Shown piece by piece: positions 6,627-33,882 of a stretch of 64,000 nucleotides of DNA (position 1 is the first letter of the stretch; the number at the start of each line of letters is the position of its first letter). Made by a program: the position numbers and the translations under genes. The notes beneath the pieces were generated by a model. It searched no databases, had not been told where the DNA came from, and saw only the letters and a program-made list of their open reading frames with translations. Origin of the DNA: Oerskovia jenensis (lineage in GTDB: Bacteria; Actinomycetota; Actinomycetes; Actinomycetales; Cellulomonadaceae); NCBI RefSeq assembly GCF_016907235.1, contig NZ_JAFBBO010000001.1:2914001-2978000 (forward strand), in the 5' to 3' direction.

Positions 6627-7640
6627 ATGATCCACACCGAAGGGCTGACCAAGACCTTCCATCGCAAGAAGGAAGTGGTCGAGGCGGTCAAGGGCATCGA
6701 CGTCGACGTCCGTGAGGGTGAGCTCGTCGCGTTCCTCGGCCCCAACGGCGCCGGCAAGTCCACGACCCTGCGCATGCTCACGAGCCTCCTCGAACCCACG
6801 TCGGGCCGGGCCGAGGTCGCCGGCTTCGACGTCCGCACCCAGCCCGCCGAGGTCCGGTCACGCATCGGGTACATCGGCCAGGGCAACGGGGGAGGGTTCT
6901 CGTACCGCGTCGCCGACGAGCTCCACAACCAGGGCCGCTTCTACGGCATGGCGGCCTCCGAGTACCAGCGCCGGGCCGCGGACCTCCTCGAGGCCCTCGA
7001 GCTCGACGGCCTCGGCAAGCGCACGGTCCAGAGCCTGTCGGGCGGACAGCGCCGCCGCCTCGACGTGGCGCTGGGCCTCATGAACCACCCGCCGCTGCTG
7101 TTCCTCGACGAGCCCACCACGGGCCTCGACCCGCACAGCCGCGCGAACCTCTGGGAGCACATCGGGGCGTTGCGCGAGCGGTACGGCATGACGATCGTGC
7201 TCACCACGCACTACCTCGACGAGGCCGACTCCATGGCCGAGCGCGTCGTCGTGATCGACCACGGCACGATCGTCGCCGACGCCCCGCCCGCCGCGCTCAA
7301 GCGCGACCACGCGGACGACGTCGTGACGCTCGTCGTCAGCGGGACGTCCGCGTCCCAGGGACAGGTGCCCGACGACGTCACGCGCGTCCGCGCAGCTCTC
7401 GCCCCGGTCGTGGGCTCGGTGGGCGAGGCCGACGACGGGAGGCTGCAGGCGACCGTCGGCGCCGGGGGAGACGTCACGGTGACCCTGTCCACGGCGCACG
7501 GCACCGACCGCCTGCCCGAGGCGATCGAGTCCCTGCGCGTCGCGGGGCTCTCGGTCCGGTCGGCCGGGCTCAAGCAGGCGAGCCTCGACGACGTGTTCCT
7601 CAACCTGACCGGTCGGAGCCTGCGCGAGGAGGCGGCGTGA
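6627..7640 (+). CDS. ABC transporter ATP-binding protein, daunorubicin-resistance (DrrA) type
   Basis: ATPase of a drug-efflux-type ABC exporter (337 aa). Walker A GPNGAGKST, signature LSGGQRRRLDVALG, Walker B LLFLDEPTTGLD and the switch histidine in LTTHYLDEAD are all present. The extended C terminus ending in ASLDDVFLNLTGRSLRE is characteristic of the DrrA family. GAGAGG lies before the ATG. It overlaps the permease gene by one base and is divergent from a TetR gene, so inducible efflux is likely. The substrate is unknown. Confidence 0.92.
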   Translation: MIHTEGLTKTFHRKKEVVEAVKGIDVDVREGELVAFLGPNGAGKSTTLRMLTSLLEPTSGRAEVAGFDVRTQPAEVRSRIGYIGQGNGGGFSYRVADELHNQGRFYGMAASEYQRRAADLLEALELDGLGKRTVQSLSGGQRRRLDVALGLMNHPPLLFLDEPTTGLDPHSRANLWEHIGALRERYGMTIVLTTHYLDEADSMAERVVVIDHGTIVADAPPAALKRDHADDVVTLVVSGTSASQGQVPDDVTRVRAALAPVVGSVGEADDGRLQATVGAGGDVTVTLSTAHGTDRLPEAIESLRVAGLSVRSAGLKQASLDDVFLNLTGRSLREEAA

Positions 7641-8575
7641 TGGACGAGCAGACGAACCCGAGCCAGGGGGTCGAGCCCGAGGTCGGGCAGGCGACGGGGG
7701 ACCGGCGAGAGGCGAACCTCGGGCTCGACACCCGGACCGCACCACAGGCCGCGGCGAGGCAGGCGACCGACCGGCGCTCCGACGTCGGGCGCTCGGGGGC
7801 CGCGAAGTTCCTCGGCGACACCTGGGCCGTCTTCACGCGCGAGATCCTCCTGGTCCTGCGCGACCCCTTCACCCTGATCTTCTCGCTGCTCCAGCCGCTG
7901 ATCTTCCTGGGACTGTTCGGGCCGCTGCTGACCGGCGCCGTGGGCGGCGGCATGGGCGGGCCCGGCGGGTCCACCGCCGCGACCCTCCAGTGGTTCGTGC
8001 CCGGCGTGATCGTCATGATCTCCCTGTTCGGGACCTCCATGACCGGCTCCAACCTGCTCTACGAGATGATGACGGGCTCCTACGAGCGAGTCCTCGCGAC
8101 CCCGCTGTCCCGGTCCGCGATCCTCGTGGGACGCGCGCTCAAGGAGTTCGCGCCGCTCGTGGTCCAGGGCCTGCTCATCGCGCTCGTGTGCATCCCGTTC
8201 GGGTTCACGTTCTACCCGCTGCACGCGCTCGCGGGGCTCGCCCTCCTGGGCCTGTTCGGGGTCGGCGTCGGGGCGCTTTCCTGCGCGCTCGCGCTCGCCG
8301 CGAAGAACCGCGAGTGGCTGTTCTGGGGTGTCCAGCAGTCGCTGCTGTTCCCGCTGCTCATCCTGTCGGGCATGATGCTGCCGCTCGAGGCCGGGCCGTC
8401 GTGGATGCAGACCGCGTCGAAGTTCAACCCCCTGACCTACATGGTCGACGCCGAGCGCGCCCTGTTCGGCGGGACGTTCGCGAGCACGACCGTCCTGTGG
8501 GGCGTCGTGGCCGCCGCGGTCACGTGCGCGGTCGGCCTGTGGGTCGGCATCCGTCGGACCAGGAAGTCGGTGTGA
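7640..8575 (+). CDS. ABC-2 type permease, DrrB-like
   Basis: Membrane partner of the preceding ATPase (311 aa). A long hydrophilic N terminus (about 55 residues) precedes an ABC-2 core with six hydrophobic segments; PLEAGPSWMQTASKFNPLTYMVDAER is split by a helix break typical of the family. ATG at 7640 overlaps the upstream TGA, with GAGGAGG in front. Together the two genes should form a half-size exporter that dimerises. Confidence 0.9.
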   Translation: MDEQTNPSQGVEPEVGQATGDRREANLGLDTRTAPQAAARQATDRRSDVGRSGAAKFLGDTWAVFTREILLVLRDPFTLIFSLLQPLIFLGLFGPLLTGAVGGGMGGPGGSTAATLQWFVPGVIVMISLFGTSMTGSNLLYEMMTGSYERVLATPLSRSAILVGRALKEFAPLVVQGLLIALVCIPFGFTFYPLHALAGLALLGLFGVGVGALSCALALAAKNREWLFWGVQQSLLFPLLILSGMMLPLEAGPSWMQTASKFNPLTYMVDAERALFGGTFASTTVLWGVVAAAVTCAVGLWVGIRRTRKSV

Positions 8576-11897: not shown

Positions 11898-12799
11898 GGA
11901 GCCGCCAGGGAACGCGCCGGCAGGATGATCGGCGCACCGCCGTCGGGGTGCTCGACCACCTCGACCGGGTAGTCGTACACCTCGCTCAGCAGCCCGGCCG
12001 TCAGGACCTCGCGAGGAGAACCGTCGGCCACGACCCGACCGCCCGACAGGAGCGTGACCTGGTCCGCGTACGCCGACGCCAGGCCGAGGTCGTGCACGAC
12101 GACGACCACGGCGCCCCCGGCCTCCGCGTGGCGACGCGCGATCTGGAGCACGAGCTCCTGGTGCTTGAGGTCGAGCGCGGCGGTCGGCTCGTCGAGCATG
12201 AGCAACCCGGTCCGCTGCGCGAGGACACGGGCGAGCGCGACACGCGCCTTCTCGCCCCCGGACAGCGACGGGAAGTGGCGGGCCGCGAGGTGCGTCACGT
12301 CGGTCGCGGCGAGAGACTCGGCCACGACCTCGTCGTCGATCTCCTCCGACGGTGTCCCGCGCCAGGGCGCGCGACCCATCTGGACGACGTCGAGCGACGT
12401 GAACGGGAAGCTGAGGTGGATCTGCTGCATGAGCACGGCCCGGCGCATCGCGAGCTCGGTCGGTGTCCAGGACCGCAGGGGCGCACCGTCGACCAGGACG
12501 GCCCCGCCGTCGAGCGGCAGGTCGCCCGTGAGCGCCCCGAGCAGCGAGGACTTGCCCGCACCGTTGGGGCCGAGCAGCGCGCGGACCTCGCCCGCCCGCA
12601 CCTGGACGGACACGTCGCGCAGCACGGGCGTCCCGTCGAGCGAGAGCGTCGCGTCGCGCGCCTCGGTCACGACGTCGCCGGCCGCCGCGACAGAGGGCAG
12701 CCGTGACGCCCGGCGCCGCCCCGTGACCGCGGTCCGCAGGGACGACAAGAAGCTGCTGCCCTCGTGCCGAGAGTCGAGCTCGACCAGTGTGCGGCTCAT
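11888..12799 (-). CDS. hmuV: Heme ABC importer ATP-binding protein HmuV
   Basis: ATPase of the heme importer (303 aa). Walker A is GPNGAGKSS, the signature is SLSGGEKARVALAR, Walker B is LLMLDEPTAALD, and the switch histidine is in VVVVHDLGLA. About 45 residues precede the usual start of the domain. The ATG at 12799 overlaps the hmuU stop (ATGA), so it is translated with the permease. It is last in hmuT-hmuU-hmuV, and its stop codon is provided by a family B palindrome. Confidence 0.9.
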   Translation of the reverse strand: MSRTLVELDSRHEGSSFLSSLRTAVTGRRRASRLPSVAAAGDVVTEARDATLSLDGTPVLRDVSVQVRAGEVRALLGPNGAGKSSLLGALTGDLPLDGGAVLVDGAPLRSWTPTELAMRRAVLMQQIHLSFPFTSLDVVQMGRAPWRGTPSEEIDDEVVAESLAATDVTHLAARHFPSLSGGEKARVALARVLAQRTGLLMLDEPTAALDLKHQELVLQIARRHAEAGGAVVVVVHDLGLASAYADQVTLLSGGRVVADGSPREVLTAGLLSEVYDYPVEVVEHPDGGAPIILPARSLAAPPR

Positions 12800-28013: not shown

Positions 28014-29132
28014 ATGAGCAACCTCGAGACCCGGCCCCGCGAAGAGGTGTGCGCCGCGGGGAGCCATGCTCCGTCGTCGGGCGCGCAGGACGTCCCGGGC
28101 GCAGGATCGCCCGTCGAGATCCTCGACCACCGCCAGGTCCCGCTCGGCGGTACCCGCGCCATGGACGTGCGCCGCACGCTGCCGCAGCGCGTGCGCTCGC
28201 TCGTGGGCGCGTGGTGCTTCCTGGACCACTACGGGCCCGACGACGTCTCGACGTCCGACGGCATGCAGGTCCCGCCGCACCCGCACACCGGCCTCCAGAC
28301 CGTGAGCTGGCTGTTCGCGGGCGAGATCCTGCACCGCGACTCGGTCGGCTCGTTGCAGACCGTGCGGCCGGGCGAGCTCAACCTCATGACGGCCGGACGC
28401 GGCATCTCGCACTCGGAGGAGTCGCCCGCGGGCGTGCGCCCGCCCCTGCTGCACGGCGTGCAGCTCTGGGTCGCGCTGCCGGCGGACCGGCTCGGTGACG
28501 AGCCCTTCTTCGAGCACCACGGCGACCTGCCCGCGTGGAGCGGGCCTGGGGGCGAGCGGGTCCAGGTGCTCGTGGGGGCGCTGAGCTTGGGCGGCGCCGA
28601 GCTGCGGTCGGCCGCGACGGTCTTCACGCCCCTGGTCGGGGCGCAGGTGGACCTGCCCGCGGGGGCGTCGGTCGAGCTCGCGGTGGACCCGGGCTTCGAG
28701 CACGCGCTGCTCGTCGATGCGGGCGACGCGTCGTTCGAGGGCGTGCCCGTGCCGGTCGCATCGCTCGGCTACGTCGAGCCAGGGCGTTCGGTGCTGACCG
28801 TCTCGGCGGGGGAGCGAGCCGTGCGGGCCGTGCTGATCGGCGGCGAGCCGTTCGCCGAGGAGATCGTCATGTGGTGGAACTTCGTGGGCCGCTCGCACGA
28901 CGACGTCGCGGCCGCGCGTGCGGACTGGATGGCGCAGGTCGAGGTCAGCCCGGATGTCCTGGGGGACGAGACGGCCGCGGCGCAGGTCTCCGTGCCCGGG
29001 GACGGCGGCACGCGCTACGCCGCAGGGGCGTCGGGCCGAAGGTTCGGTGAGGTCGCCGGCTACGACGGCGGGCCGCTGCCCGCTCCGGTGCTGCCGGACG
29101 TGCGCCTGAAGCCGCGCCGCCGCCCGTCCTGA
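28014..29132 (+). CDS. Pirin family protein
   Basis: Bicupin protein of the pirin family (372 aa). The N-terminal cupin has the metal-binding signature PPHPHTGLQT followed by GELNLMTAGRGISHSEES; the usual pirin Pirin_C region starts near residue 205 and ends around EEIVMWWNFVGRSHDD. Bacterial pirins include quercetinase-like enzymes and pyruvate-dehydrogenase modulators; this role is unknown. About 65 residues at the C terminus exceed the usual length. The ATG follows TAGGCT by six bases (leaderless candidate). Confidence 0.9.
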   Translation: MSNLETRPREEVCAAGSHAPSSGAQDVPGAGSPVEILDHRQVPLGGTRAMDVRRTLPQRVRSLVGAWCFLDHYGPDDVSTSDGMQVPPHPHTGLQTVSWLFAGEILHRDSVGSLQTVRPGELNLMTAGRGISHSEESPAGVRPPLLHGVQLWVALPADRLGDEPFFEHHGDLPAWSGPGGERVQVLVGALSLGGAELRSAATVFTPLVGAQVDLPAGASVELAVDPGFEHALLVDAGDASFEGVPVPVASLGYVEPGRSVLTVSAGERAVRAVLIGGEPFAEEIVMWWNFVGRSHDDVAAARADWMAQVEVSPDVLGDETAAAQVSVPGDGGTRYAAGASGRRFGEVAGYDGGPLPAPVLPDVRLKPRRRPS

Positions 29133-29151
29133 GGTCTCGCCGGAGCGTTGT

Positions 29152-29203
29152 GGGCGGAGATGTGGCCGCCATCTCTCGCGAGATGGCGGCCACATCTCCG
29201 CCC
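29152..29203. terminator. Perfect 24-bp-arm palindrome between convergent genes
   Basis: Arms 29152-29175 and 29180-29203 are perfectly complementary with a TCGC loop. The arm begins GGGCGGAGATGTGG. It sits between the convergent pirin and FtsX-type permease genes and is probably a bidirectional terminator. I saw no second copy in the window. Confidence 0.8.
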
Positions 29204-29222
29204 TCATCCAGATCGTGGGTTG

Positions 29223-30476
29223 TCAGGGGACGCGCAGGATCCGGACCGGATCTCGGTGCGCGGCGGCCAGGGCGGGCGGTACTGCCCCTGCGAGGGCGAT
29301 GAGGACCGCGAGGGTCGCGACGCCGGTCGTGAACGTGGGGTCGGGCAGGGTGCCCGTCAGCTGGTGCACGACGGCGAGCCCGCCCCCGACGCCGAGCGCG
29401 ATCCCGGCCAGGGCAGCGACCCCGGTCTGGACCAGGACGAGGGTGATGATCGCGGTGCGCGTGGCACCGAGTGCGCGACGCCGCCCGAAGTCCCGGCGCC
29501 TGCCCGCAACGGCCCCGAGCATGGTGATGGTGATGAGCGCGAGTCCGACCCCCAGGACGACGGCCATGAGCTGTCTGGACGACGCCCCGAGCTCCCCGGC
29601 GACGACCTCGCGCAGCGCGAGCGCGCCGTCGGGGGTCTCGACCGTGATCTGCCGGGACTCGGCTGCGGGCATGACGGCCGGGATGGCTGCGGCGAGTTCG
29701 TCGACCGTGGTGACGTCGGTCGCCATGGCGTACACGTAGCGTGCCTCGACGGGCGGGGGCGTGTCCCCGGACGTACCGGGGCCGCTCGGGGCGAGCGGCG
29801 TCGTCGGGCTGGAGACGAGGATGCTGGTGCTGAGCGACGCGAGCGGACCCGTGGCCTCGTAGACCCCGACCACGGGCCACGAGCGTGGGCCGTCGGTCAC
29901 GGTTCCGACGCCGTCGACCATCCCGAGCGTGCGCGCCGCGTCGACCCCCATGACTGCCTCGCCCTCGCGCGGGGTTCGGCCAGTGACGATCTGGAGCGCG
30001 GGGGGCAGGCCGCCGTACAGGGGACGCAGGGCAACCCCGGCGGACAGCCCGCCCGTGTCGGCGTTACGGACATCGGTCACCGATCCCAGCGCGAACGCCC
30101 AGCTCACGGAGTCCAGGCGCGCGACGTCCTCGACGCCGCGCGCGTGCATGTGTGCGTTGCCCGACTGGTCGAACGCCGTGACGAGCCGTGTGCCGACCCC
30201 GTCGATCCGGTCCATCACCGCGCGCTCTGCGGCGGCGGACTGCCCGGTGGTGGCAAACACCACGAGGCACACGATCGCGATGACGAGCGCTGCGGTCGCT
30301 GTCGCGACGGGCTGGGCGAACGCGGACTTCACGCCGTCGGCGAGGAGTCGCGCGGGACGCGGCGACCCGGGCCAGGTCTCTCTCCTGCCCGACGGCGGGC
30401 CATCAGCGGGGAGCTCGGGTGCGGCGGTGCGCGGGTCGGGTGCGGGGGGCGAGAGCTGCTGCTCGGGCGCGCTCAT
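29223..30476 (-). CDS. FtsX/MacB-type ABC transporter permease
   Basis: Membrane subunit of a MacB-like exporter (417 aa). After a Pro-rich cytoplasmic leader come one helix (TATAALVIAIVCLVVFATTG), a large extracytoplasmic domain of about 200 residues, and three C-terminal helices with the FtsX-domain pattern MAVVLGVGLALITITMLGAV, GRRRALGATRTAIITLVLVQ. The end HRDPVRILRVP is typical. It overlaps the ATPase gene by four bases (ATGA). Permeases of this type work with an adaptor to move peptides or lipids outward rather than through a channel. Confidence 0.87.
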   Translation of the reverse strand: MSAPEQQLSPPAPDPRTAAPELPADGPPSGRRETWPGSPRPARLLADGVKSAFAQPVATATAALVIAIVCLVVFATTGQSAAAERAVMDRIDGVGTRLVTAFDQSGNAHMHARGVEDVARLDSVSWAFALGSVTDVRNADTGGLSAGVALRPLYGGLPPALQIVTGRTPREGEAVMGVDAARTLGMVDGVGTVTDGPRSWPVVGVYEATGPLASLSTSILVSSPTTPLAPSGPGTSGDTPPPVEARYVYAMATDVTTVDELAAAIPAVMPAAESRQITVETPDGALALREVVAGELGASSRQLMAVVLGVGLALITITMLGAVAGRRRDFGRRRALGATRTAIITLVLVQTGVAALAGIALGVGGGLAVVHQLTGTLPDPTFTTGVATLAVLIALAGAVPPALAAAHRDPVRILRVP

Positions 30477-31114
30477 GCCAGGACCAGCCGGTGGTCGGCC
30501 TCGGCGGCGAGCTGCTCGTCGTGCGTCGCGATGACGACGGTCGCGCCGCTTCGAGCGTGGTCGCGCAGCGCGTCCCACACGATGCGGGCGGAGGCGTGGT
30601 CGAGGTTGCCCGTTGGCTCGTCGCCGAACACCACGCGCGGCGAGGTCAGCAGCGCGCGGCACAGGGCCACGCGCTGGGCCTGACCACCTGAGATCTCACC
30701 GGGACGGTGCGTCGCCCGGTGCCCCACGCCGAACCGGTCGAGCAGGTCGGCGGCGCGGGTGCGCGCGACGCGGGCGGGCATGCCCGCGAACAGGGCGCCC
30801 TCGCAGACGTTGTCGGTGATGGTGCGGGCCGGGTCGAGCATCGCGTCCTGGAAGACGAAGCCGACGTCCGCGGCCCGCAGGCGCGAGCGCTCGGCGTCGG
30901 GCAGCGACGCGACGGGCCGGCCGTCCCACAGGACCTCGCCCGAGGTCGTGCGCAGCATGAGCGCCAGGATGTAGAGCAGCGTCGACTTGCCCGACCCGGA
31001 GGGGCCCGTGACCGTGGTCAGCGCGCCGGGCGCGAAGGCCGTGGTCAGCCCCTCGATGACCGGGGGAGCACCCTTGCGGTAGGCGAACGTCAGGTCGCTC
31101 GTCGCGAGGGTCAC
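30473..31114 (-). CDS. MacB/LolD-type ABC transporter ATP-binding protein
   Basis: ATPase of the same exporter (213 aa). It has Walker A GPSGSGKST, Q-loop VGFVFQDAMLDP, signature EISGGQAQRVALCR, Walker B VVFGDEPTGNLD and switch THDEQLAAEADH. The GDEPTGNLD form is characteristic of the MacB/LolD/FtsE branch. GTG start overlaps the adaptor stop (GTGA), so adaptor, ATPase and permease are translationally coupled. Confidence 0.93.
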   Translation of the reverse strand: MTLATSDLTFAYRKGAPPVIEGLTTAFAPGALTTVTGPSGSGKSTLLYILALMLRTTSGEVLWDGRPVASLPDAERSRLRAADVGFVFQDAMLDPARTITDNVCEGALFAGMPARVARTRAADLLDRFGVGHRATHRPGEISGGQAQRVALCRALLTSPRVVFGDEPTGNLDHASARIVWDALRDHARSGATVVIATHDEQLAAEADHRLVLA

Positions 31115-32265
31115 GGCGTGGTCCCGCCTGTGCCGCCTCCGGTCTCAGCCGTACCGGCGTCCGACCCGTCACCCTTGCCTCCGGTCGTACCCCCGCTGGC
31201 CCCTGGGTCCTTCTCGCCGAACAGCCGCACGACGTCGCCCACCGCGATGCCGTCGACGACGGCCCGACCGTTGCCCTGAGACAGGATCGTGACGGGGACC
31301 TGCTCGCCGTCCTCGGTGACGACGAACGCCTCCCCACCGGCTCGCGTGCCGATCGCTGCTGCCGGGACGGCAGGGCCTGTCGCATCCTCGACGGTGATGA
31401 TGTTCCCGGTGAACAGCGCGTCCTTCTCGGCGACGGGGACGCTGCTGCACGCCACGCCGCACAGCGAGCCGCCGTCGGGGGCCGTGAGCGTGAGGAGGAG
31501 GAGGCCGTTGTCGGTGGTGGTGGCGGAGGCGATGATGCCGTCCCAGGTCGCGTCGGCCCCGGTCACCGAGACCGGGCCGGACGTGGGGACGAGCCCCGCC
31601 TGGTCGGCGGACAGCTCCATGACGAACGTCGGCGTCAGACCGAGCGAGGACACCACGGCCGTACCGGGAGTCAGCTGAGCACCGAGGAAGACCTCGGGGT
31701 CGAGGACGACCCTCGCTGGCAGCGTGCCGACGAAGACGACGTCCCCCGCGCGGACGACCCCGTCCTCGGTGACCTTGGCGGTCTTCTGCCACTTCTTGAC
31801 CGCCGCAGTCGTGGCCTCGGAGAACTTCCCGTCCGGGGTGCGGACCTTGAGATAGCCCGCGTCGCGCAGGAACTCCTGGAGCTGGCGGACGTCCGCCCCC
31901 TCGCTGCCCTCGGAGAGGTCACGGAATGAGGGAACCGCGCCGGACGCGATGACGACTGGCCGCAGGTCCACGGTGTACAGGATGTCGCCCGCCGCGACCG
32001 TGTCGCCCTCGACGACCTCGAGGGACGTCACTGTCCCCGTGGCGGCCCCGGTTCCGAGCGGCGTCTTGTCCCATCGGGCCGCGACCGGGAAGGACATCGA
32101 GTTCCCGACCGTCTCCTCGCGGACCGTGTAGAGCGGCACCGTCGACTCAGCCACCGGAGCGGCGGGCGGGGCGAACGTCGCCCGCCCCGCCCACAATCCA
32201 CCGGCCGCTGCGAGCAGCACCACCAGAACCCAGGCCGCTCGGGCCCCCCACCTGCGTGTCATCAT
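31111..32265 (-). CDS. HlyD-like membrane-fusion adaptor with peptidoglycan-binding domain
   Basis: Adaptor of the exporter (384 aa). An N-terminal anchor helix (AAWVLVVLLAAAGGLWAG) precedes an extracytoplasmic region with a lipoyl/barrel-sandwich half (GTVTSLEVVEGDTVAAGDIL), then a PG-binding_1 domain at about residues 120-170 (GADVRQLQEFLRDAGYLK, TTAAVKKWQKTAKV), the second lipoyl half and a beta-barrel. A Gly/Thr-rich tail ends it. Such adaptors in Gram-positive bacteria couple MacB-type ABC exporters to the cell wall. Two adjacent ATGs (32265 and 32262) are possible starts; the ribosome site is weak. Confidence 0.85.
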   Translation of the reverse strand: MMTRRWGARAAWVLVVLLAAAGGLWAGRATFAPPAAPVAESTVPLYTVREETVGNSMSFPVAARWDKTPLGTGAATGTVTSLEVVEGDTVAAGDILYTVDLRPVVIASGAVPSFRDLSEGSEGADVRQLQEFLRDAGYLKVRTPDGKFSEATTAAVKKWQKTAKVTEDGVVRAGDVVFVGTLPARVVLDPEVFLGAQLTPGTAVVSSLGLTPTFVMELSADQAGLVPTSGPVSVTGADATWDGIIASATTTDNGLLLLTLTAPDGGSLCGVACSSVPVAEKDALFTGNIITVEDATGPAVPAAAIGTRAGGEAFVVTEDGEQVPVTILSQGNGRAVVDGIAVGDVVRLFGEKDPGASGGTTGGKGDGSDAGTAETGGGTGGTTP

Positions 32266-32518
32266 CTTCCGTTCATAGTCGTGCGATTCGAGCGGCGGTC
32301 GTGCCGGGTGCGCTTGAGCCGGCCCGGCTGCAACGCATCGCGTCCAGTGGCCGCGATGCGGGGTTGCGGCCCTTCCTGGTCGAGGCGAAAACGCCCGACA
32401 CCGGTTCTTTGCCGTTCTCTGCGTACCTGCTGACCGTGAACGTATTACCGGGGCGCAGTCAGGATCGAGAAGCAGGGGATTCCCGACCCCGGGACTCTGT
32501 GGTCCGATCCGGAGATGG
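32266..32518. other. Intergenic region upstream of the adaptor gene
   Basis: Gap of 253 bp without a convincing gene. An inverted repeat GCATCGCG/CGCGATGC (32335-32342 and 32352-32359, 9-base spacer) could be an operator for the adaptor-ABC operon or a terminator of the lipoprotein gene; both run leftward. Confidence 0.35.
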
Positions 32519-33127
32519 TCACTCGCTGGTCACGTCTTCAGCAAAGTCGGTCGTGTAGACGACGCCGTCTTCGACGCAGATCGACTTGAGCCGGTACCAC
32601 TCGTCCTTGGAGATCTCCGGCTCGGCCTCGAGGAGTGCGGCGTACGGCGACCAGACGTTGACAGTGTCGGCCCCGTTGAAGGTATCGATCCACGTCTCAC
32701 GACTCGGTGGGTCGGCTAGGGTATACCCTTCGGCGAGAAGGCAGGCGTGCGTGTCGACGACGCGGTCGTAGAAATCGCTCGCTGCGGGGACCTCCTGCTC
32801 TCCCAGCTGCCCGATGGCCTTGTTGTAGCACGCATTCATGACTGTATCGAAGGCTTTCTGCTGTTCAAGTGGTGCGCCGGACAGATCGAGCGAGATTCCT
32901 CCGTCGATCTCGGTCGTCACCGTGTACCCCTTCTCGCGGGCGCAGGCTTCTTGAAAGGCGGTGAAGGCCTCTGTGGTTTGTAGCTGCTCGGCCATCCATG
33001 CGGGCGGAGTATAGCGGGCCTCCGGAGCTTCCCGTGTCGGAGCGGAAGTGCAGGCCGCGCATGCGAGGAGTAGTGCGGATAGCAGGATCGAGCCGCCGAG
33101 TGGTGCGGCGGGACGTAGAGTGCTCAT
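32519..33127 (-). CDS. Hypothetical surface lipoprotein
   Basis: Secreted lipoprotein of 202 aa with signal peptide and lipobox LLACAAC. The mature part has a Pro-rich start, several cysteines that could form disulfides (FQEACAREKG, VMNACYNKA, DTHACLLAEG, LKSICVEDG), and no family I recognise. GGAG lies seven bases before the ATG. Base composition is visibly less GC-rich than the surroundings, with AT-ending codons, suggesting horizontal transfer. It lies between a small secreted protein gene and an exporter operon, so it may serve as receptor, immunity or accessory protein; that is inference. Confidence 0.6.
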   Translation of the reverse strand: MSTLRPAAPLGGSILLSALLLACAACTSAPTREAPEARYTPPAWMAEQLQTTEAFTAFQEACAREKGYTVTTEIDGGISLDLSGAPLEQQKAFDTVMNACYNKAIGQLGEQEVPAASDFYDRVVDTHACLLAEGYTLADPPSRETWIDTFNGADTVNVWSPYAALLEAEPEISKDEWYRLKSICVEDGVVYTTDFAEDVTSE

Positions 33128-33236
33128 CGGAAGTCTCCGTCGTGAATGATGCAGACCAAACCGCAGCGTGACTGGGCTGGAGAGTGTTGTAATTTTTGGG
33201 TGATCGAAACTCGCGCTTCGGATCGCAGCGAAGAAC

Positions 33237-33280
33237 GGTGGGGATGGCGCCGCGGTTCGTCGAGGAAAGCCATCCCCACC
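33237..33280 (-). terminator. Hairpin just after the small secreted protein gene
   Basis: GGTGGGGATGGC (33237-33248) and its exact complement (33269-33280) form a 12-bp stem with a 20-base loop, 9 bases after the stop codon of the gene at 33290. It probably ends or attenuates the small transcript before the lipoprotein gene. Confidence 0.6.
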
Positions 33281-33289
33281 GGTGATTTG

Positions 33290-33637
33290 CTACACGCTGC
33301 AGGTATAGGACCAGCCCGGAACGACGTTCTGCGTGTTCGACACGCTCCAGTAGACAGCCCCGGAAATGGCGCTACGAGCCTTCGCGGTTGCAACGCTCCC
33401 GTTCGACGTGGAACCAGTCCTGTAGGTTCCGCCAGAGTTCACGCTTACCCAGGACTTGGAGGTGCCGGTCGTCACCTGATAGCGACCGCCGGGGCAGTCG
33501 CCCGTGTCGTCGATCTTGATCGCGCTTGCGCTGCTTGCCGGAACGAAGATCAGAGCAGCGGCCAAGAGCAGGCCGATCGCCCCCCTGCTGACTTGCGATG
33601 CATCGATGCACCCTTCTGTCGGGGTCGCGCACGACAT
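33290..33637 (-). CDS. Small secreted two-cysteine protein
   Basis: Exported protein of 115 aa. A Sec signal (GAIGLLLAAALIFVPASSASA) is predicted to be cut after SASA, leaving about 76 residues rich in Ser, Thr and Gly, with one Cys near the start (DTGDCPGG) and one near the end (WSYTCSV), which suggests a single disulfide. I recognise no family; size and composition recall secreted bacteriocin-like proteins. It has its own sigma-70-type promoter, AAGGG ten bases before the ATG, and a following hairpin. Codon use is less GC-biased than the chromosome. Alternative starts within the first 17 codons are possible. Confidence 0.6.
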   Translation of the reverse strand: MSCATPTEGCIDASQVSRGAIGLLLAAALIFVPASSASAIKIDDTGDCPGGRYQVTTGTSKSWVSVNSGGTYRTGSTSNGSVATAKARSAISGAVYWSVSNTQNVVPGWSYTCSV

Positions 33638-33670
33638 TGCGCAGCGACCCTTACTTACTGGACGTGAATG

Positions 33671-33700
33671 AGAATAGCGACCTGCAGAGGGGGTTGTCTA
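33671..33700 (-). promoter_or_regulatory. Promoter of the small secreted protein gene
   Basis: On the minus strand, TAGACA (33695-33700) and TATTCT (33671-33676) are separated by 18 bp. The start codon lies 34 bases beyond the -10, leaving room for a short leader with the AAGGG ribosome site. Confidence 0.6.
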
Positions 33701-33729
33701 CTGGCGGTTCGAGAGACGCCCTGGCATCA

Positions 33730-33800
33730 CCGACCGTCCGGTCGGGAATTGTGCTGAAGTTATCGCAGGATGCCCTAAGGGGAGGGGTTTCTGCCCCTCC
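33730..33800 (-). terminator. Hairpins downstream of narI
   Basis: Two stems follow the narI stop on the minus strand: GGAGGGG/CCCCTCC with a six-base loop (33781-33800) and CCGACC/GGTCGG with a four-base loop (33730-33745). They probably end the nar transcript before the promoter of the next gene. Confidence 0.5.
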
Positions 33801-33882
33801 GGGCGGTATGGCGGCCCGATTCGCTCACAACATCGGATGTGCTTCCGGCTGCAGCACACCGGGCCAGATGCGGCGGGTTTGA

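Follow-up and report, generated by a model that had tools for sequence, protein, structure and literature searches.

What does a short secreted protein of no named family do at the head of an operon that encodes a complete transporter? This question is raised by a five-gene cassette in a 64,000-nucleotide stretch of the Oerskovia jenensis genome (2914001-2978000 on a contig of 4.45 Mb; the whole stretch is referred to below as the window). All five genes lie on the minus strand and, in order of transcription, encode a small Sec-secreted protein that we call SEC (33637-33290, with the mature part at 33520-33293); a lipoprotein with a lipobox, LIP (33127-32519), which is probably an immunity lipoprotein; an adaptor of the membrane fusion protein type with a PG_binding_1 domain (32265-31111); a MacB/LolD-type ATP-binding cassette (ABC) ATPase (31114-30473); and an FtsX-type permease (30476-29223). 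A preliminary description made from the sequence letters had proposed this order, and the genes were found where it had placed them; the four-base overlaps (31111-31114 between adaptor and ATPase, 30473-30476 between ATPase and permease) and the peptidoglycan-binding domain of the adaptor are real as well. Pfam recognises the adaptor (PG_binding_1, 5e-12), the ATPase (ABC_tran, 4e-29) and the permease (FtsX, 1.6e-10), and in NCBIfam the ATPase matches LolD (1.8e-49) and L_ocin_972_ABC (TIGR03608, 9.8e-42), both under the curated cut-offs. The MacAB-FtsX-type set is complete in the window cassette; no modification enzyme was found among its genes in the Pfam scan, and the large multi-transmembrane protein associated with some bacteriocins is absent from it. 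With a probability of about 0.6, we read the cassette as a bacteriocin-like production and self-protection unit, in which LIP and the ABC genes would provide dedicated immunity rather than export of SEC; this reading is drawn from sequence comparison and structure prediction.

The argument starts from the place which a known bacteriocin family takes in related operons. Lactococcin-972 genes (PF09683) are present in 20 of the 222 genomes of the taxonomic family, and they occur in two contexts. One is the classical context of a large membrane protein and an ATPase, as at locus L217, where a 686-amino-acid open reading frame (ORF) of the large membrane protein kind follows the PF09683 gene. In the other, seen in Cellulosimicrobium and relatives (L203-L209), directly after the PF09683 gene come genes for a lipoprotein, then an adaptor, then an ATPase; where the sequence beyond was read, it holds a permease-like ORF. 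The bacteriocin genes of L203, L206 and L209 match PF09683 at 1e-9 to 1e-11 and served as positive controls. As judged by sequence, the lipoprotein of these operons is homologous to LIP: single matches are weak (1e-4 to 2e-3), the profile-profile comparison gives an E-value of 1.5e-5 with a probability of 79%, and all four cysteines are aligned in the same order. In a homologous operon, then, a known bacteriocin family takes the position of SEC, which supports the bacteriocin-like logic put forward in the preliminary description. In the open-access literature we found no description of lactococcin 972 with this arrangement of lipoprotein, MacB and peptidoglycan-binding genes.

It needs to be said that SEC resembles lactococcin 972 without being related to it by Pfam or profile comparison. 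At a cut-off of E<=0.1 PF09683 matched neither the window SEC nor a single one of 38 SECs, and the comparison of the SEC profile with the Lcn972 profile returned a probability of 0.2%. A search of the O. jenensis genome for lactococcin 972 found none, but the control genomes gave no match in that search either. The likeness lies elsewhere. Members of the lactococcin 972 family, such as Lcn972 and streptococcin B (PF09683 / IPR006540; PMC11796350, PMC9964109), share with SEC export by Sec, a product of about 60-80 residues and, if the SEC model holds, a beta-sandwich; Lcn972 has this fold and binds lipid II (PMC9964109). In their loci a MacB-type ATPase and a permease adjoin the structural gene, and in some actinobacteria the lipoprotein-adaptor-ATPase context appears homologous to that of SEC. 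The partner genes of the family are predicted immunity and transport proteins of unverified function (PMC11796350). On the other hand, SEC has two invariant cysteines and no sequence or profile similarity to PF09683, and its cassette has a lipoprotein and a peptidoglycan-binding adaptor where classical lactococcin 972 loci (L217) have the large membrane protein. That SEC works like lactococcin 972 is supported, that it is a member of that family is not.

SEC itself turned out to represent a hypervariable set. We gathered 43 further SEC-like proteins from loci chosen by FtsX similarity and passed through SEC filters; most of them are encoded beside LIP, and adaptor, ATPase and FtsX genes are nearly always near. 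The window SEC and its 43 relatives all have a Sec signal peptide and a short mature protein, of about 70-90 residues and rich in Gly, Ser, Thr, Tyr and Trp, with two invariant cysteines, the first about 10 residues from the mature N-terminus and the second at the very C-terminal end. Identity to the window SEC is 9-31% across the family, and only the orthologue from O. enterophila, the nearest named relative of the window cassette, is closer, at 74%. The preliminary description had given SEC two cysteines, which holds for the predicted mature part of 76 amino acids; the precursor has four. It had also assigned SEC to no family, and indeed neither Pfam nor NCBIfam gave a match for the window SEC. 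AlphaFold2, run on the alignment of 44 sequences, predicts for mature SEC a beta-sandwich of seven strands (predicted local distance difference test score (pLDDT) 74.8, predicted template modelling score (pTM) 0.60). Structural searches with this model returned generic beta-sandwich domains (best Z 6.7), which we do not regard as relatives, and the Lcn972 entry was not among the matches listed. Two other candidates were set aside: an antibody found by sequence search of solved structures, judged a chance match, and a second weak SEC match in the O. jenensis genome (2372293, with counterparts in congeners), which lies in another frame inside an ABC-F type ATPase gene and is noise. One locus, L093 of genome G128, has two SEC-like genes in tandem (6841-7245 and 7427-7771), and a LIP homologue was not detected nearby.

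LIP combines its lipobox with four further cysteines, and of the 66 LIPs whose lipobox can be recognised, 64 have exactly four. Its AlphaFold2 model is mainly helical and confidently predicted (pLDDT 92.2, pTM 0.82), and this predicted fold is unmatched in the PDB, where neither fold nor sequence search found a counterpart; the best fold match, with Z 4.5 over 59 residues, is meaningless. No convincing match was obtained in Pfam or NCBIfam for 60 LIPs, and none for the window LIP; neither SEC nor LIP belongs to a named family. LIPs occur in tandem or in surplus at L097, L103 and L146, and genome G140 has seven matches. A search of PLSDB returned no LIP homologue, and we rejected carriage on plasmids.

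How regularly do these genes occur together? Searches with tblastn and hidden Markov models found the cassette across the taxonomic family, and a scan of species genomes with an FtsX alignment yielded 80 named loci, in Cellulomonadaceae and relatives, Microbacteriaceae, Micrococcaceae, Propionibacteriaceae, Demequina and Blastococcus; others among them come from Acidimicrobiia metagenome-assembled genomes and from three such genomes labelled Chloroflexi, though organism labels of this kind may be wrong. A LIP homologue is present in 58 of 73 non-duplicate loci, many of the remainder lying on short contigs, and PG_binding_1 was found in all 40 cassette adaptors scanned. SEC-like ORFs number 39 in 111 kb beside LIP (0.35/kb) versus 8 in 773 kb elsewhere in the same loci (0.010/kb), a 34-fold difference in density (binomial p 8e-28) which is optimistic because the filter was shaped on near cases; four of the eight far ORFs are family members still near a cassette. 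The notion of the preliminary description that the small proteins and the ABC genes form one cassette fares less well if taken as a strict unit, as both kinds of exception exist: SEC-LIP pairs without adjacent ABC genes at L089, L090 and L094, and LIP-ABC sets without SEC, two of which are in the O. jenensis genome itself (L241, G000 3858000-3869000, and L242, G000 3381500-3392000). The SEC-less sets belong to a distant clade of LIP-adaptor-ATPase-FtsX operons, and most of the cases examined there (L241, L242 and L248-L251) adjoin genes for a response regulator and a histidine kinase, namely L241 and L248-L251. Such operons share with the SEC cassette a homologous four-cysteine lipoprotein and ABC set, and have the two-component genes in place of SEC. 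At L250 we also noticed a gene for a small secreted two-cysteine protein (11949-12344); a lipoprotein-like ORF comes after it, and the two-component-linked LIP operon is several kb away.

The cassette has come or gone as a whole, at a site whose content varies between species. The whole inserted block (29133..33882) lies between a pirin-like gene (28014-29132) and narI (33883 onwards). The pirin gene is present in all seven Oerskovia genomes compared, and the block is absent from three of them: tblastn matches on either side end about 50 bases apart in G004 and G006 and about 160 in G003. G002 also carries the cassette at this site, G005 has other genes there, including a sigma-factor-like gene and one for a small secreted protein, and G001 has an AAA-ATPase-like gene. 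The narI-pirin interval thus behaves in Oerskovia as a variable insertion site (window 29133-33882; L226 1970-4600; L227 4834-6191), empty in three species, occupied by the cassette in two, by a set of sigma-factor, small secreted protein and lipoprotein genes in one and by the AAA-ATPase-like gene in another. Composition tells the same story as the preliminary description had: the guanine-plus-cytosine content of SEC (0.629) and LIP (0.624) is about 10 points below that of the surrounding genes (0.728 +/- 0.023 for the 45 other genes of the window), while the ABC genes have 0.717-0.745. The acquisition which that description had supposed is supported by the empty sites in three congeners and by the different inserts in two others.

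The five genes have changed at very different rates. Between the two Oerskovia species the ratio of nonsynonymous to synonymous substitution rates (dN/dS) is 0.46 for SEC, 0.36 for LIP, 0.23 for the adaptor, 0.16 for FtsX and 0.09 for the ATPase. The body of SEC has evolved under constraint since the split, and the gradient is what one would predict if a toxin and the partner that binds it were served by a conserved engine. Moreover, across loci SEC distances track LIP distances weakly but significantly once FtsX is corrected for (partial rho 0.147, permutation p 0.012), and they do not track FtsX distances.

These observations suggest how the unit may work. SEC would be exported by the general Sec pathway and cleaved to about 76 residues, one disulfide would join the first and last strands of its small beta-sandwich, and the protein would attack closely related bacteria at their cell envelope. 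LIP, which its lipid would anchor to the outside of the membrane, would bind the producer's own SEC, and the adaptor would tie the adaptor-ATPase-FtsX machine to peptidoglycan; driven by ATP, this machine would pull SEC, or a complex of SEC with its target, off the membrane and into the wall, much as in NisI/NisFEG immunity. We infer that LIP is the specificity factor and the ABC the general engine, because of the rates of change, the covariation of SEC with LIP and not with FtsX, the tandem LIPs and the precedent of NisI and NisFEG, where lipoprotein and ABC transporter each confer only part of nisin immunity (PMC4828448). In LanI and LanFEG systems (NisI/NisFEG, PMC4828448), too, a dedicated lipoprotein and an ABC transporter are encoded together with a secreted antibacterial; the SEC cassette has a MacB-type ABC with an adaptor instead, and no modification enzymes, and the analogy, read from gene anatomy, is one of function only. 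With MacAB-type tripartite systems and the Gram-positive operons for a peptidoglycan-binding adaptor, MacB and FtsX, the cassette shares overlapping adaptor, ATPase and permease genes, to which the loci described here regularly add the four-cysteine lipoprotein, whose predicted fold is without a match, and in many cases SEC.

Could the same genes serve another purpose? The adaptor and permease are MacB-like, every adaptor scanned can be assigned a peptidoglycan-binding domain, and SEC, LIP and ABC genes co-localise, all of which would suit a two-step secretion in which LIP and the ABC export SEC, release it or position it across the thick wall after Sec translocation. However, with a Sec signal of its own SEC needs no ABC for export, a second export step is superfluous in monoderm cells, and the SEC-LIP pairs without adjacent ABC genes and the LIP-ABC sets without SEC do not fit; we consider this quite unlikely, and the exporter role that the preliminary description had given to the ABC genes is left unsupported, immunity being likelier. 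It is also improbable, in our view, that SEC protects the envelope or serves adhesion as a small carbohydrate-binding or inhibitor domain diversified under pressure from phage or host, with LIP and the ABC handling envelope damage. Its model does weakly resemble carbohydrate-binding modules and the lysozyme inhibitor PliG (Z 5 to 6.7), and in a congener the narI-pirin site holds the gene of a different small secreted protein, but generic beta-sandwiches reach such Z values as well and a bacteriocin family occupies the same slot in homologous operons. Alternatively, SEC could be secreted as a signal, or as a cue that the producer makes for itself, and be the ligand of a LIP-ABC sensor, as in BceAB-type sensing. 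The related operons that have a response regulator and a histidine kinase as neighbours (L241, L248-L251) tell us that the module can be tied to signalling, and SEC and LIP distances correlate. Still, a response regulator was detected near none of the 39 SEC-bearing loci, most signals are short peptides rather than families of hypervariable domains of 80 residues, and true bacteriocins take the place of SEC, which makes a sensing role unlikely.

In favour of a bacteriocin-like unit we count the PF09683 bacteriocins in the SEC slot, the two invariant cysteines of an otherwise hypervariable SEC, its density beside LIP, the dN/dS gradient, the SEC-LIP covariation, LIPs in tandem or surplus as for immunity genes, the gain at one site with variable inserts in congeners, a predicted beta-sandwich, the fold reported for Lcn972, the NisI and NisFEG precedent and the Sec signal. 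Several observations weigh against it. Under our filters 19 of the 58 LIP loci lack SEC, although a relaxed look gave a few more; LIP-ABC operons without SEC are common, some of them beside a two-component system, and the module therefore has a wider role. The SEC-LIP distance correlation is weak, confidence in the SEC model is moderate, homology of SEC to lactococcin 972 was rejected on the Pfam and profile results, and the start of SEC is disturbed in the O. jenensis genome. One plausible way to reconcile the two kinds of operon is to see in LIP and the ABC a single envelope-defence module put to two uses, and on that view the sensing explanation stays in play.

The disturbance of the SEC start deserves a closer description. 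The start codon of SEC in O. enterophila is an ATG (MHRKSAGGAIGLL...), preceded at about 8 bases by a ribosome-binding sequence. Alignment with that species places the conserved ancestral start region of the window at 33584..33603 on the minus strand (ATGCATCGCAAGTCAGCAGG), where the ATG at 33603 and its ribosome site are kept and the G-run after the ATG is one base short (GGGGGAG to GGGGGG), so that the conserved ATG is shifted by one base from the SEC frame. Upstream of this ATG one base has been inserted, and this leaves a longer SEC frame open from 33637, a start which sits in the loop of a leader hairpin and is unconserved, as O. enterophila has ACG there. The length of 115 amino acids given in the preliminary description is for these reasons uncertain. 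In O. jenensis a new start may be used, the gene may be switched off, or the homopolymer may contain an assembly error.

The flanks of SEC carry possible signals on the same strand. A promoter-like site, TAGACA-18-TATTCT, lies upstream at 33700-33671; it is a consensus match only (one found versus 0.1 expected). The 5' leader hairpin mentioned above (GGGTCGC...GCGACCC, approximately 33616..33652) is kept in O. enterophila through one compensatory pair change (GGGCCGC...GCGGCCC) in the two sequences compared, with folding z of -2.5 and -2.2 in the two species; Rfam has no match for it, and it is possibly a regulatory element. Between SEC and LIP, a strong hairpin, GGTGGGGATGGC...GCCATCCCCACC (approximately 33226..33285), folds at -32.7 kcal/mol (z -4.95), and its O. 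enterophila counterpart at -31.9 (z -3.15). The preliminary description had credited SEC with its own promoter and its own hairpin, and both have a candidate; the hairpin was not scored as a classical terminator because it has no T-tail. It is probably a partial terminator or a processing stem, and it would allow SEC to be produced in excess over the products of the downstream genes.

What may this mean for the actinobacteria that carry such cassettes? Tentatively, and at somewhat less than even odds, we propose an undescribed large actinobacterial class of bacteriocin-like systems, in which hypervariable, disulfide-closed beta-sandwiches and, independently, lactococcin-972 proteins would be plugged into a common defence engine, in which a four-cysteine lipoprotein of new fold feeds a peptidoglycan-anchored MacB pump and which is derived from or ancestral to the two-component-linked envelope defence module. 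Immunity in the lactococcin-972 class is not experimentally established (PMC11796350). As one kind of lipoprotein-ABC partner operon is common to several actinobacterial lactococcin-972 genes and to the diverse SEC family, the immunity question becomes testable. Apart from a confidently predicted lipoprotein fold for which no PDB match was found, the gain is practical: LIP together with the peptidoglycan-binding adaptor offers a search handle for dozens of undescribed candidate antibacterial proteins.

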